From contig NZ_JQMV01000003.1 in the NCBI RefSeq assembly GCF_000744885.1, positions 434,001 to 498,000 of the forward strand: 64,000 nucleotides of DNA, written 5' to 3'. Source of the stretch: Thermus amyloliquefaciens (lineage in GTDB: Bacteria; Deinococcota; Deinococci; Deinococcales; Thermaceae). This document shows positions 41,536 to 51,089 of the stretch, one piece after another. Numbering within the stretch: the stretch's first letter is position 1; each line of letters opens with the position of its first letter. The notes under the pieces were generated by a model, which was not told the origin of the DNA, made no database searches, and worked only from the letters and a program-made list of their open reading frames with translations. Made by a program: the position numbers and the translations under genes.

Positions 41536-42294
41536 ATGCCACGGCCCAGGAGGAAGGGAGCCGAGGAGGTGAAGACCCTGGAGCGGGGCCTAGCCGTGCT
41601 CCAGGCTTTGGCGGAGTTAAGGGAGGCCGGTCTTTCCTCCCTGGCGCAACGAACGGGGCTTACCAAGAGCACCCTTTACCGCTTCCTCCAGACCCTGGTC
41701 CGCCACGGTTTCGTGGAGGAGGAAAAGGGGGTCTACCGGGTGGGCCCCAAGGCCTTCGCCGTGGGCCAGGTCTATCCGAGGCGGAACCTGCTTCTTGCGG
41801 TGCGTCCGGAGATGGAGGCCCTGGCGGCGGAAACCGGGGAGAGCGTGAACCTGGCGGTGCTGGCGGGCAAGGAGGCCCTTTACCTGGACCAGGCGGAGGG
41901 AAGAAGGCTGGTCCGCCTCTTCACCGCTCCGGGGAGCCGGGCCCCCCTGCACGCCACCGGGGTGGGAAAGGTCTTCCTGGCTTTCCTGGGTCTTCCCGAG
42001 GGGGTTTCCCTAACCCCTTACACCCCCTACACCCTCACCCGCCGGGAGGACCTGGAGCGGGAGCTCGCCGGGGTGAGGGCGAAGGGCTACGCCCTGGACA
42101 ACGAGGAGAGGGAGCTGGGGGTGCGGTGCGTGGCCGCGCCGGTTTTCGGCCCCGGGGGGGAGGTGGTGGCGGCCCTTTCCCTTTCCGCCCCCGCAAGCCG
42201 CCTTTCCCTGGAGGAGGCCCACCGCCTGGCCCCCCGGGTGGTGGAGGCGGCCAGGAAAGCTTCCTTGCGCTTAGGTTTTGTGCCCCCCTTGTAG
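41536..42294 (+). CDS. IclR family transcriptional regulator
   Basis: A 252-aa regulator with an N-terminal winged helix (LERGLAVLQALAEL, SLAQRTGLTKSTLYRFLQTLVRHGFV) and a C-terminal GAF-like effector domain (GESVNLAVLAGKEALYLDQ, LHATGVGKVFLAFL). It is divergent from malate synthase and shares the palindrome with it. IclR itself and AllR respond to glyoxylate or pyruvate; sensing of glyoxylate here is an inference from context. The ATG at 41536 was preferred over an upstream start inside the palindrome. Confidence 0.92.
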   Translation: MPRPRRKGAEEVKTLERGLAVLQALAELREAGLSSLAQRTGLTKSTLYRFLQTLVRHGFVEEEKGVYRVGPKAFAVGQVYPRRNLLLAVRPEMEALAAETGESVNLAVLAGKEALYLDQAEGRRLVRLFTAPGSRAPLHATGVGKVFLAFLGLPEGVSLTPYTPYTLTRREDLERELAGVRAKGYALDNEERELGVRCVAAPVFGPGGEVVAALSLSAPASRLSLEEAHRLAPRVVEAARKASLRLGFVPPL

Positions 42295-42335: not shown

Positions 42336-43034
42336 ATGGACAAGGACCGTCCCGTGTACGTGATCTCGGTGGCGGCGGAGCTTTTGGAGATGCACCCGCA
42401 GACCCTGAGGCTGTACGAGCGGAAGGGTTTGATCAAGCCGAAGCGGTCGGGCGGGAAGACCCGGCTTTACTCGGAGCGGGACATTGAGAAGCTGAGGGAG
42501 ATCCGCCGCCTGACGCAGGAGCTTGGGGTGAACCTGGCGGGGGTGGAGGAGATCATGCGGCTTCGGGCGGAGCTGGAGGCCCTGCAGGCCCGGTTTGAGG
42601 CCGAGGTGGCCCGGCTGAAGCAGGAGATCGGGGCCCGCTTTGAGGAGCTGGAGCGCCCGGCCCTTCCTCCTCCCGGGGCCACGGCCAAGCCCTCCCCCAA
42701 GGACCGTCCCGTGTACGTGATCTCGGTGGCGGCGGAGCTTTTGGAGATGCACCCGCAGACCCTGAGGCTGTACGAGCGGAAGGGTTTGATCAAGCCGAAG
42801 CGGTCGGGCGGGAAGACCCGGCTTTACTCGGAGCGGGACATTGAGAAGCTGAGGGAGATCCGCCGCCTGACGCAGGAGCTTGGGGTGAACCTGGCGGGGG
42901 TGGAGGAGATCATGCGGCTTCGGGCGGAGCTGGAGGCCCTGCAGGCCCGGTTTGAGGCCGAGGTGGCCCGGCTGAAGCTCCTTCTCCTGGAGGAGGGTAA
43001 GGCGCTTTCCGAAGGGAGTAGCATGGGGGCGTGA
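42336..43034 (+). CDS. hspR: HspR-like MerR family repressor, tandem duplicated
   Basis: A 232-aa protein that contains two copies of a complete HspR-like domain. Each copy starts [14 protein letters not shown], has the MerR helix-turn-helix [14 protein letters not shown] and ends in a coiled-coil helix ([19 protein letters not shown]). Copy 1 spans residues about 3-95 and copy 2 about 122-214, joined by a Pro-rich linker ([11 protein letters not shown]). HspR normally acts as a single-domain repressor of dnaK/clpB-type heat-shock genes at HAIR inverted repeats. The two copies are identical in DNA as well as protein. AAAGG precedes the ATG. The stop overlaps the peptidase GTG start. No heat-shock gene is adjacent. 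An assembly artefact must be excluded. Confidence 0.85.
42341..42621 (+). repeat. 281-bp direct repeat, copy 1 (hspR)
   Basis: Identical, base for base as I read it, to 42698-42978. The offset is 357 bp, which is 119 codons, so the frame is kept. Confidence 0.9.
42698..42978 (+). repeat. 281-bp direct repeat, copy 2 (hspR)
   Basis: Second copy of the repeat at 42341-42621. A 76-bp unique linker separates the two. After the repeat the sequences differ at once. Confidence 0.9.
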
Positions 43035-44341
43035 AGACGCTAGCGCCCCTTTTGGAGTTCTTGTCCATCCCTTCGGTATCCACCGACCCCGCCCACAGGG
43101 AAGACGTCCGCAAGGCGGCCCGGTGGCTAGCGGCCAAGCTCCAAGCCCTGGGTTTCCGCACCGAGCTCCACGAGACCCCCCTCCACCCCATCCTCTACGC
43201 GGAGCGCCTCCTGGACCCCAAGGCCCCCACGGTCCTGGTCTACGGGCACTACGACGTCCAGCCCCCGGATCCCCTGGAGCTTTGGGAAAGCCCGCCCTTT
43301 AGCCCCACCCTGCGGGACGGGCGGATCTACGCCCGGGGGGCCTCGGACGACAAGGGGCAGCTTTGGGCCCACGTGGCGGCCCTCGAGGACCTCCCCGCCC
43401 GGGTGAACGTGAAGTTTTTGGTGGAAGGGGAGGAGGAGATCGGAAGCCCAAACCTCCTCCCCTTCGTGCGGGCCCACCGGGAGAAGCTGAAGGCCGACGT
43501 GGTCCTCATCTCCGACGGGGCCATGTTCGCCCCCCACACCCCCACCCTCACCTACGGCCTGAGGGGCCTCTGCTACCTGGAGGTGCGGCTAAAGGGGGCC
43601 AGGCGGGACCTCCACTCCGGGGCCTTCGGCGGGGTGGCCCCAAACCCCATCCAGGCCCTGGGCTGGCTTTTGGCCAAGCTGAAGGACGAGAAGACGGGGA
43701 AGGTGCGCATCCCGGGCTTCTACCAACGGGTGCGCCCCGTTTCCGAGGAGGAGCGCCGCCTCTGGCCCCCCTTGGACGAGGCGGCCCTGAAGGCGGAGCT
43801 GGGGGTGGAGGTTTTGCCGGGGGAGGAGGGGTACTCTCCCCTGGAGCGGCTTTGGACCCGGCCCACCCTGGACCCGAACGGCATCTGGGGCGGTTACCAG
43901 GGGGAGGGCTCCAAGACGGTGATCCCCGCCGAGGCGGGGATGAAGCTCTCCATGCGCCTGGTGCCGGACCAGGACCCGGAGGAGGTGGCGGCCTTGGCGG
44001 AGGCTTACCTGAAGGAGGTCTGCCCCCCCGGATACCGCCTGGAGGTCCTTCGCCTCCACGGGGGCAAGCCCGTGCTCACCGACCCCCATAGCCCCCCCAT
44101 GCGCCTCATGGCCAAGGCCTTGGAGGAGGTCTGGGGCCGTCCGCCGGTCTATGCCCGGGAAGGGGGCACCATCCCCGTGGTGGCGGAGCTCCAGGAGGCC
44201 CTGGGGGCGCCCGTGGTCCTCCTGGGCCTGGGCCTTCCCGACGACAACCTGCACGCCCCCAACGAGAAGCTGGACCTGGTGAACCTGGAGAGGGGGATCG
44301 CCGCCATCAGGCGCTTTTACGAGCTCCTGGCGGGGGGCTAG
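43031..44341 (+). CDS. M20 family dipeptidase/deacylase
   Basis: A 436-aa zinc peptidase of the M20 family (CNDP/ArgE-like). The metal motif [10 protein letters not shown] (His and downstream Asp), [10 protein letters not shown] and the catalytic EGEEEIGS are in order, and the dimerization domain begins near LHSGAFGGV. The C-terminal histidine lies in [13 protein letters not shown]. Start is GTG 43031, overlapping the hspR TGA by 4 nt, so it is co-translated with the repressor gene. The natural substrate is probably a dipeptide. Confidence 0.92.
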
Positions 44342-48982: not shown

Positions 48983-49435
48983 TCAGCCTTGGGGCCAAAG
49001 CTCCCGGATCTCCTTGGGGAGGAGGTTTATCACGTCTTGCACCTCGCCTTTCGAGACCTTTTCCTTAAGCACCCGGAAAACCGCCCGCGCCGCGGTCTCG
49101 GGGTCCAGGGCAGGGCCCGAGGGAGTCTTGAGCTCCCGAGCCACGTGGGCCAGGAAGTCCTCCTTGTGCCGCTCCTTGAGGGGCTTGCCTGTGGGGTCCC
49201 AGCCCTCCTAGAAGAGGCCCCGAAGGAGCATGGGTAGACCCGCGGCCAGCTGGGCGGCCTCCTCCACGGTGAGGCGGTCCCGCAGGGCGTGGAGCACCGC
49301 CCTCAGGGCCATGTAGGCCCGGTGGCGGTCCTCGGTGCCCAGGGCCTCCATGGCGGCCTTGAGCCAGGCATGGGTCTTGTGGAGGGTGGTATCGAACACC
49401 TGGTCAACTCTAGCCACCACTACCCACCTCTTCAC
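48983..49435 (-). pseudogene. DUF2267 protein gene broken by an in-frame amber codon and an insertion
   Basis: Read through, this frame gives a 150-codon DUF2267-like protein: DTTLHKTHAWLKAAMEALGT, ALRAVLHALRDRLTVEEAAQL and LPMLLRGLF, then TAG (49208-49210), then EGWDPTGKPLKERHKEDFLAHV and a DxETAARAVFRVLKEKVSKGE end. Homologues have Tyr where the TAG stands, so one base change explains it. The first 11 codons come from the right end of the tnpB element; the native start is probably GTG 49399. The insertion also separates the gene from its likely promoter beyond 51094. The function of DUF2267 proteins is unknown. Confidence 0.82.
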
Positions 49436-49640
49436 GAGGAGATGTTTTCATGGCAGCCGGCCCACCACCGTCATGGGCGAAGCCCATACCTTGCGGATGT
49501 GGACCTGAGCCTCCCTTCCACCCCTCCCACGATCCCAGTAGGATGGGCTTGAGCGGCGACAGGTCTCTTGGCACTCTTCGCCCAAGGAGGGGAAGGAAGG
49601 TGCCTACCCTCAGGGCTCGCCAGGGATTATTGCCCTGGGG
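49385..49640 (-). ncRNA. possible omega RNA from the tnpB 3' end
   Basis: In TnpB systems the guide RNA comes from the 3' part of the element and its last 15-20 nt from the flank beyond the right end. Here the last 90 codons of the tnpB frame look non-protein-like (Gly/Pro-rich) and include a GGGCTTCGCCC stem. The flank that would act as guide is the start of the DUF2267 gene. This is inference, not seen directly. Confidence 0.3.
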
Positions 49641-51089
49641 GTTCCTTCCATTGGTTGACCCCTTTGGACTCCCCGGCTCACCCTGTGAGCTCAAAATCAT
49701 GGCGAGAGCCCGCTTGGCCTCCTTAAGCTCCCGCCCAAGTCTGCGCTTGAGGTAGGGGTTCCTCTCCCGGCGGTATTTGTCTTGAAGCTCCGCTATCCGC
49801 TCCCCGTAGAAACGCCGGGCGTGTTGGTGGAAAGTGGAGTCTCCTAAGAGGGCCCTGAGGTTCTTGGGTATCTCCTCCTTGAACCCCAAGGCCCTCCTGC
49901 CGATCACGTAAGCGGCGGCCACGTCCTTGGAGAGGGAAAGGAGAGGCGCGTACTTCAGCATCCCGATGGTGGAGGTGTCCTTGGGGTTCACCTCCAGGCT
50001 TTGGATGCCCTTTCTCCTGGCCAAGGTGTGCACTTTCTTGAGGAGGGAGCGGTAGGCAAAGCGGTGGGCTTTGCGGCGAAAGTGTCGTCCAGAGCCGTCT
50101 CCTCTCCTTCCCTTGGGTAAGTGCTTCAGTCTTTCCGTGGCAATGGCGACTTCCTCTTCCATGGCGATACCCACCACCTGGTGGGCGATCTGCCAAAGGA
50201 GGATTTCCTTGGCTCCTCGGTTAGGAGCTTTATCAACTTCCTCAAGAGAGAGGGTCAGGTACCGCCTCAGGTTCCCATCGGGGTTGACGATGGCCAGGGC
50301 TAGATGGTAGGGATCGGAGTTGATGTCCAAGGCCAGGATGCCCTGCTCCTTCGTAACCCTCAGGGGTGGAAGTTCCTCTTCCCAGGAGAACAGGGCGTAG
50401 ACCTTTCCTTTCCTCAGGCTGAGCTCCACGTTGTACGGATCTCCGGCGTACACCCTCCCCAGAAGTTCCTGGAGTCTGGGGTGGCTCGTCTTCACCAGGG
50501 CATGGGCGTAGCGGTCCACCAGGTTGATGCGAAGGCAAAGGCTTCCGTTCCCGATCACCAGGCGCAGGTTGAGGTTGCCGCCCTTCGTCTTGTCTCCCCT
50601 GGCATAGAGCATGCCTTTGCGCCGTTCCTCCCATTCCGCCTTCTTCTCCCTGTAAAGGGGCCGGTTGCTCCTTGAGAAACGGGAGAGCTCCTGGTGGAGC
50701 TTTCTGCCCCCGGTCAGCCCCGTAGGGGCTATCTTGCAGACCACCTTGCGGGGGTCTTCACCCCGTTCCTTCAGGGAGGAGATGAGGCTTTGGGCTTTGA
50801 GGAGGGCGTCGTCTGCGTAACGGGTGTTGAGGCGGAAGAGGTTGCACAAGAGGCCGTCTTCCCTCTTCAAGGCCTTGCGGTCCTTTCCTTCCAGGAGTCT
50901 TTGGTACCCGTAGCGAAGGGCTGAGGAAAACCGGCGCATGAGGTCTACGGTGTCCTTGTGGTCCTCATGGTTTGGGAAGACCAGGAGGGCTTCTAGGCCG
51001 GTGTAGGTCTTGGGTTGCTTCTCAGCTGCTTTGCCCATGGGTGTATTGGCTCCAAAACTAAGCCTAGTGTAGCTTGATGGTGGCAAGGG
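49403..51089 (-). mobile_element. solo tnpB element (IS605/IS1341 type)
   Basis: The element carries only a tnpB-like gene and no tnpA. The pentamer TTGAC occurs on the minus strand both just outside the left end (51090-51094) and at the right end (49403-49407), as expected for the cleavage or insertion sites of IS200/IS605 elements, which make no target duplication. A short hairpin CCTC-GTGAA-GAGG lies near the right end. Exact ends are an inference. Confidence 0.6.
49410..51038 (-). CDS. tnpB: TnpB-related protein without zinc ribbon
   Basis: A 542-aa RuvC-like protein, related to the RNA-guided nuclease TnpB, the ancestor of Cas12. RuvC motifs are LALDINSD (D238), IATERLKHL (E302) and LSKDVAAAY (D372), so the DED triad looks intact. 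Between E302 and D372 the CXXC...CXXC zinc ribbon of ordinary TnpB is absent, replaced by TSTIGMLKYAPLLSL. This fits the group annotated as TnpB-related in several thermophiles. The C-terminal tail after residue 450 is probably the RNA scaffold read as protein. The ATG at 51038 was chosen; a TTG at 51086 is possible. Confidence 0.85.
   Translation of the reverse strand: MGKAAEKQPKTYTGLEALLVFPNHEDHKDTVDLMRRFSSALRYGYQRLLEGKDRKALKREDGLLCNLFRLNTRYADDALLKAQSLISSLKERGEDPRKVVCKIAPTGLTGGRKLHQELSRFSRSNRPLYREKKAEWEERRKGMLYARGDKTKGGNLNLRLVIGNGSLCLRINLVDRYAHALVKTSHPRLQELLGRVYAGDPYNVELSLRKGKVYALFSWEEELPPLRVTKEQGILALDINSDPYHLALAIVNPDGNLRRYLTLSLEEVDKAPNRGAKEILLWQIAHQVVGIAMEEEVAIATERLKHLPKGRRGDGSGRHFRRKAHRFAYRSLLKKVHTLARRKGIQSLEVNPKDTSTIGMLKYAPLLSLSKDVAAAYVIGRRALGFKEEIPKNLRALLGDSTFHQHARRFYGERIAELQDKYRRERNPYLKRRLGRELKEAKRALAMILSSQGEPGSPKGSTNGRNPQGNNPWRALRVGTFLPLLGRRVPRDLSPLKPILLGSWEGWKGGSGPHPQGMGFAHDGGGPAAMKTSPREEVGSGG

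Follow-up and report, generated by a model that had tools for sequence, protein, structure and literature searches.

How does a gene come to encode the same protein domain twice with no base difference between the copies, and what might two such copies do for the protein? The question is raised by hspR of Thermus amyloliquefaciens, which lies within the stretch of 64,000 nucleotides analysed here (the window, to which the positions below refer). An initial annotation read the gene as an HspR-type repressor made of two DNA-identical copies in one frame, and offered very recent origin, gene conversion or an assembly error as the cause of the identity. The reading we arrive at, and consider probable as a whole, is that of a fused HspR that would act as a covalent dimer to repress dnaK, the fusion being old and the halves homogenised within Thermus. 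Sequence comparisons show that the gene is a fusion, that the fusion is old, that its halves are homogenised and that an operator-like element stands at dnaK; these points are taken up in that order.

Architecture of the Double Gene

The gene and its parts are as follows.

42336..43034, + strand: hspR, fused-homodimer type, 232 aa, with ATG start and TGA stop (open reading frame; NF047377; Pfam MerR_1 in two stretches)
42341..42621, + strand: repeat copy A, a winged-helix MerR/HspR domain and the first part of a long helix (281 nt, 100% identity to copy B)
42622..42697, + strand: non-repeated 76 bp, the end of helix A and a Pro-rich linker (from the sequence; a low-confidence loop in the model; kept 357-bp copy spacing)
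42698..42978, + strand: repeat copy B, the second MerR/HspR domain (100% identity to copy A)
42979..43031, + strand: C-terminal tail, found only on copy B (from the sequence; model residues 225-232 of low confidence)

A repeat search finds one repeat family in hspR, consisting of 281 nt present twice at 100% identity, with no mismatch, at a spacing of 357 bp and in a single frame. The coordinates first given for a segment repeated down to its silent sites are thus exact, and the frame is indeed kept across the 76-bp Pro-rich linker, since 42336-43034 is open for 232 aa. The double gene has one full-length match in the T. amyloliquefaciens genome. Codon bias or chance as the source of the identity is ruled out: with codon usage as in ten genes nearby, the same 93 residues encoded twice independently would share all their codons with P ~10^-26.

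Residues 3-214 of the product align to positions 1-214 of the NCBIfam model NF047377 ("heat shock protein transcriptional repressor HspR, fused homodimer type"), with a score of 389.5 bits where the cut-off is 300. The single halves also pass the NCBIfam HspR model NF047375, at 126.3 and 125.7 bits for a cut-off of 105. The description of an HspR-type MerR protein with two domains on one chain is therefore confirmed, and both domains are complete. Dimers of the MerR superfamily are recognised by winged helices together with an antiparallel coiled coil of two long helices. In the predicted structure (pTM 0.67), a long helix comes after each of the two winged helices, at residues 67-105 in the first half and 186-227 in the second, and a low-confidence loop at residues 110-117 joins the halves. 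Compared with known folds, the prediction matches MerR-family DNA-binding domains, with a best Z of 9-10.5.

Assembly Quality and Occurrence in Thermus

Short-read assemblers have trouble with exact repeats of 281 bp. In seven Thermus drafts the sequence stops within hspR or is split at it, and one low-quality draft has a frame break there; short-read drafts can thus misreport this gene. The double gene of T. amyloliquefaciens YIM 77409T, however, sits in an assembly of 2,160,855 bp in 6 contigs that was made by HGAP from PacBio reads only, with a 10-kb library and 384.9x coverage (PMC4769583). The same double gene is found in 14 other Thermus genomes, including the PacBio genomes of T. brockianus GE-1 and T. 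parvatiensis RL, and the same structure occurs in genera whose halves differ too much to be confused with one another. An assembly error, one of the causes originally entertained for the identity, accordingly has virtually no chance of being the explanation. The comparison with related Thermus genomes that had been proposed as a check resolves the double gene in 15 of them, counting T. amyloliquefaciens, and returns a single copy in four assemblies, to which we come back below.

Distribution and Age of the Fusion

The two-headed repressor had been put forward as a new form of heat-shock control. That claim does not survive. By its profile matches, the two-headed HspR is not new: it is the already curated family NF047377, and several families of the class carry it. 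The fused-type cut-off is passed by 50 of the 111 genomes of the class, drawn from four families, and in a fifth family HspR is single-domain. Thermus hspR has the architecture and the taxonomic home of NF047377, with no structural difference from it. The literature searched yielded no publications on fused HspR, nor any on gene conversion within single genes for bacterial proteins.

All 15 Thermus double genes have the linker and the 357-bp copy spacing in common, and a similar linker region occurs at the same place in sister genera. Because the linker and spacing are common to all the Thermus doubles, the duplication is ancestral, and the comparison places the fusion before the origin of the genus Thermus. 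One could suppose instead that each Thermus lineage duplicated a single-domain hspR recently, and that too little time has passed for the copies to differ. The pairing of copies by genome in a tree and the single copy in four assemblies would both fit such a history, but a fresh duplication would not recreate a linker that all the doubles share, and the similar linker region of the sister genera and the fused genes in four families also speak against it. We regard it as very improbable, and independent recent duplications in Thermus were rejected on the common linker. With an ancestral duplication, identity at silent sites is not proof of the very recent origin that had been suggested: the duplication predates Thermus, and its halves have since been homogenised. 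The general lesson is that exact silent-site identity need not imply recent duplication.

Concerted Evolution of the Halves in Thermus

Across the 15 Thermus genes, copies A and B of the same gene differ at 0-15 of 279 bp, with a median of 3, while the same copy differs between Thermus genomes at a mean of 26.9 of 279 bp. At third positions, the differences are 2.3 between A and B within a gene versus 18.0 between genomes. In a tree of all halves, A and B of one gene form a sister pair in 15 of 15 cases with support of 0.79-0.999; the modest support of a few pairs, 0.79-0.86, is unsurprising among closely related species. A site that differs between two genomes does so in both copies in 2332 instances, versus about 260 expected under independent evolution. 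The mismatches that remain between A and B are unevenly placed: of 62, the 48 end bases hold 42 and the central 231 bp the other 20, seven of which come from one genome. Conversion tracts that rarely extend to the ends of the repeat would be expected to leave such clustering. Together, these patterns indicate that the halves of hspR have repeatedly been made equal within each Thermus lineage, which is concerted evolution. The novelty of the locus is this lineage-specific self-homogenisation inside one regulatory gene, not the two-headed form. As a detail, T. tenuipuniceus has RPVYG in place of RPVYV in copy B alone, a single change in a part of the domain where conservation is otherwise high.

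We propose that homologous recombination between the halves keeps rewriting them to match, so that both heads would stay alike. The route would be gene conversion, or else unequal crossing-over between the several chromosome copies of a cell. Gene conversion, which the initial annotation had listed among the possible causes, holds up as a candidate on the A/B sister pairs and the end-clustered mismatches, and in its non-reciprocal form is the simplest and most likely route. T. thermophilus is polyploid, with four to five or more chromosome copies, and this could favour either conversion or unequal exchange. In strain HB27 of that species, gene conversion has been ruled out as the cause of allele segregation between chromosome copies (PMC6469415). 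That result counts against conversion, but the assay concerned alleles on different chromosomes and not adjacent repeats.

One-Copy Assemblies

The four assemblies in which hspR has a single head are G003, T. brockianus YIM 77927, CCB_US3_UF1 and Thermus sp. 2.9. They are scattered over the tree. In each, the N-end of copy A is joined to the C-end of copy B, which is the exact product of recombination between the repeats. It had been predicted that such recombination could yield a gene shorter by 357 bp, and the predicted form does appear in these assemblies, but the same product results when an assembler collapses the repeat. CCB_US3_UF1 was assembled from 454 and Illumina reads, with PCR verification only for repeats above 3 kb (PMC4599208), and the PacBio genomes checked are two-copy in three out of three cases. 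A search for the linker in the one-copy assemblies did not find it, which is uninformative, since drafts broken at hspR lack it too. The one-copy alleles may be short-read collapses, and we do not count them as real.

These assemblies bear on whether homogenisation might proceed by repeated unequal crossing-over, by way of one-copy and three-copy alleles, in place of non-reciprocal conversion, so that the number of heads could change between one and two. Such exchange would leave precisely the one-copy form that these assemblies, dispersed over the tree, display. A three-copy gene, however, was not seen; a one-copy gene lacks the linker and could regain it only by DNA uptake; and the read types behind CCB_US3_UF1 and the uniform result from the three PacBio genomes weigh against it as well. 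We judge this route decidedly unlikely next to gene conversion. It is less probable still that the one-copy alleles are real products of recombination between the halves and that Thermus populations contain both one-headed and two-headed HspR. If that were true, a repeat kept by recombination would be a switch in the strength of heat-shock repression.

Diverged Halves in Meiothermus and Calidithermus

The fused HspR of Meiothermus and Calidithermus is an orthologue with the same two-head layout as in Thermus, but its halves are diverged, whereas those of Thermus are near-identical. In the tree, the halves of these genera group by position, A with A and B with B, and A differs from B at 34-81 of 270 bp. 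Over 16 Meiothermus genomes, head B has fixed or nearly fixed substitutions in the wing (K33->E, I36->V, K39->S/R, S41->T and G42->S/A, in aligned-unit numbering) and in the helix (W84->D, L86->Q, E87->Q and R91->E, in the same numbering). The grouping and the substitutions indicate that the two heads of Meiothermus are on separate paths. In both genera, homogenisation would have stopped or weakened, and head B would have gained a different wing. Identity of the halves at the DNA level is a property of the Thermus lineage and not of NF047377, whose Meiothermus members are diverged. Thermus and its sister genera constitute a natural experiment: a fused repressor that homogenisation at the DNA level has held symmetric in one genus has grown asymmetric in others, and dnaK carries a HAIR-like element on either side of the comparison. 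The contrast makes it directly testable whether the symmetry of a covalent dimer matters for the repressor.

A HAIR-Like Element at dnaK

Upstream of dnaK, the pattern (C/T)ATGA(T/C)A-N7-(A/G)CTCAA(C/G) is present in all 25 Thermus loci inspected, one of which departs from it at one position. The element has conserved arms and a variable 7-bp spacer. It precedes the dnaK start by about 50 bp and lies just upstream of a conserved CTTGAC, the -35 box. In a whole-genome search, 26 of 27 Thermus genomes contain the exact pattern YATGAYA-N7-RCTCAAS a single time each; the pattern was drawn from the dnaK promoters themselves, so that only its rarity elsewhere is independent evidence. With a loosened pattern, a related CTTGATA-N7-RCTCAAS-like element is found upstream of dnaK in 19 of 20 relatives from other genera. 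This loosened pattern has one match in 851 kb of background, and the reversed pattern has none at dnaK. The Thermus element agrees with the classical HAIR consensus (CTTGAGT-N7-ACTCAAG) at only 8-10 of 14 positions, its left arm being degenerate. Searching the whole genome with the strict consensus and up to 3 mismatches gives 51 matches versus 34 for a reversed-pattern control, and none of the matches inspected was near a recognisable chaperone gene. A second genomic match, at C3:1975566 and with 1 mismatch, is not accompanied by an evident heat-shock gene in the list of open reading frames. Since the HAIR-like element stands upstream of dnaK in Thermus and its relatives, repression of the dnaK operon is likely, and this operon is the likely target of Thermus HspR.

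In Streptomyces, hspR is inside the dnaK operon. Unlike this arrangement, Thermus hspR is far from dnaK (about 1.16 Mb in T. amyloliquefaciens), and a search of the 400 bp preceding hspR in 10 loci found no HAIR-like element. Autoregulation of the Streptomyces type, recognised by a HAIR element upstream of hspR or by hspR within the dnaK operon, is thus not apparent in Thermus, and it is not a defining feature of HspR. The loci of four hsp20-family matches contain no HAIR-like sites by the patterns used.

Three further observations concern the element itself. Most lineages share one form of asymmetry in it, with a left arm of CTTGATA or CATGAYA and a right arm that reads STTGAGY in reverse complement. 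Similar elements stand at dnaK in two genomes with single-domain HspR. The sequence CTCAASTCTCTTGAC upstream of Thermus dnaK is nearly invariant and links the right HAIR arm to the -35 box; it may be a second, overlapping inverted repeat.

Proposed Mode of Action

Single-domain HspR (NF047375; Streptomyces, Helicobacter, Campylobacter and Mycobacterium) shares the MerR-type domain and the HAIR-like element at dnaK with the Thermus protein, which differs in having two heads on one chain. From what is known of HspR in other bacteria, we infer DNA binding, repression and DnaK feedback for Thermus. One fused chain would do the work of an HspR dimer by dimerising intramolecularly. By way of the HAIR-like repeat that immediately precedes the -35 box, it would repress the dnaK operon, and repression would last until DnaK is occupied by unfolded protein.

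To our knowledge, the immunity repressor of mycobacteriophage belongs to a family unrelated to HspR. It is a monomer that likewise has two DNA-binding domains on one chain reading one site, an asymmetric one (PMC9283540); HAIR, by contrast, is an inverted repeat. In H. pylori, HspR is proposed to bind the HAIR motif as a dimer and covers more than 70 bp, proposed to reflect three dimers (PMC6102357). Such coverage would be in keeping with a different arrangement for the Thermus protein, in which the heads form no internal dimer and paired chains either bridge two operators or occupy a longer site. There is, however, only one strong inverted repeat of the HAIR-like kind per Thermus genome, and we think the pairing of chains unlikely compared with the covalent dimer.

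Neighbouring Genes

The genes on either side of hspR are the following.

41536..42294, + strand: IclR-type regulator gene, upstream of hspR (Pfam HTH_IclR and IclR_C; synteny)
43031..44341, + strand: M20-family dipeptidase gene (open reading frame; NCBIfam PRK08201)

The GTG start of the dipeptidase gene overlaps the TGA stop of hspR (GTGA), and from this overlap the translation of repressor and peptidase is probably coupled. The dipeptidase gene adjoins hspR in Thermus and in several other genera, including more distant ones. The IclR-type gene, 41 bp upstream of hspR, is a neighbour only in Thermus and one sister genus.

Elsewhere in the window, 49410-51086 on the minus strand holds an open reading frame of up to 558 aa, with a TTG start at the far end. 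It has no Pfam match and falls under the guided_TnpB cut-off. Weak signals of TnpB/IS605 type (TIGR01765, TIGR01766, guided_TnpB and the RuvC part of Cas12f2) point to a diverged TnpB-like protein as the predicted product.
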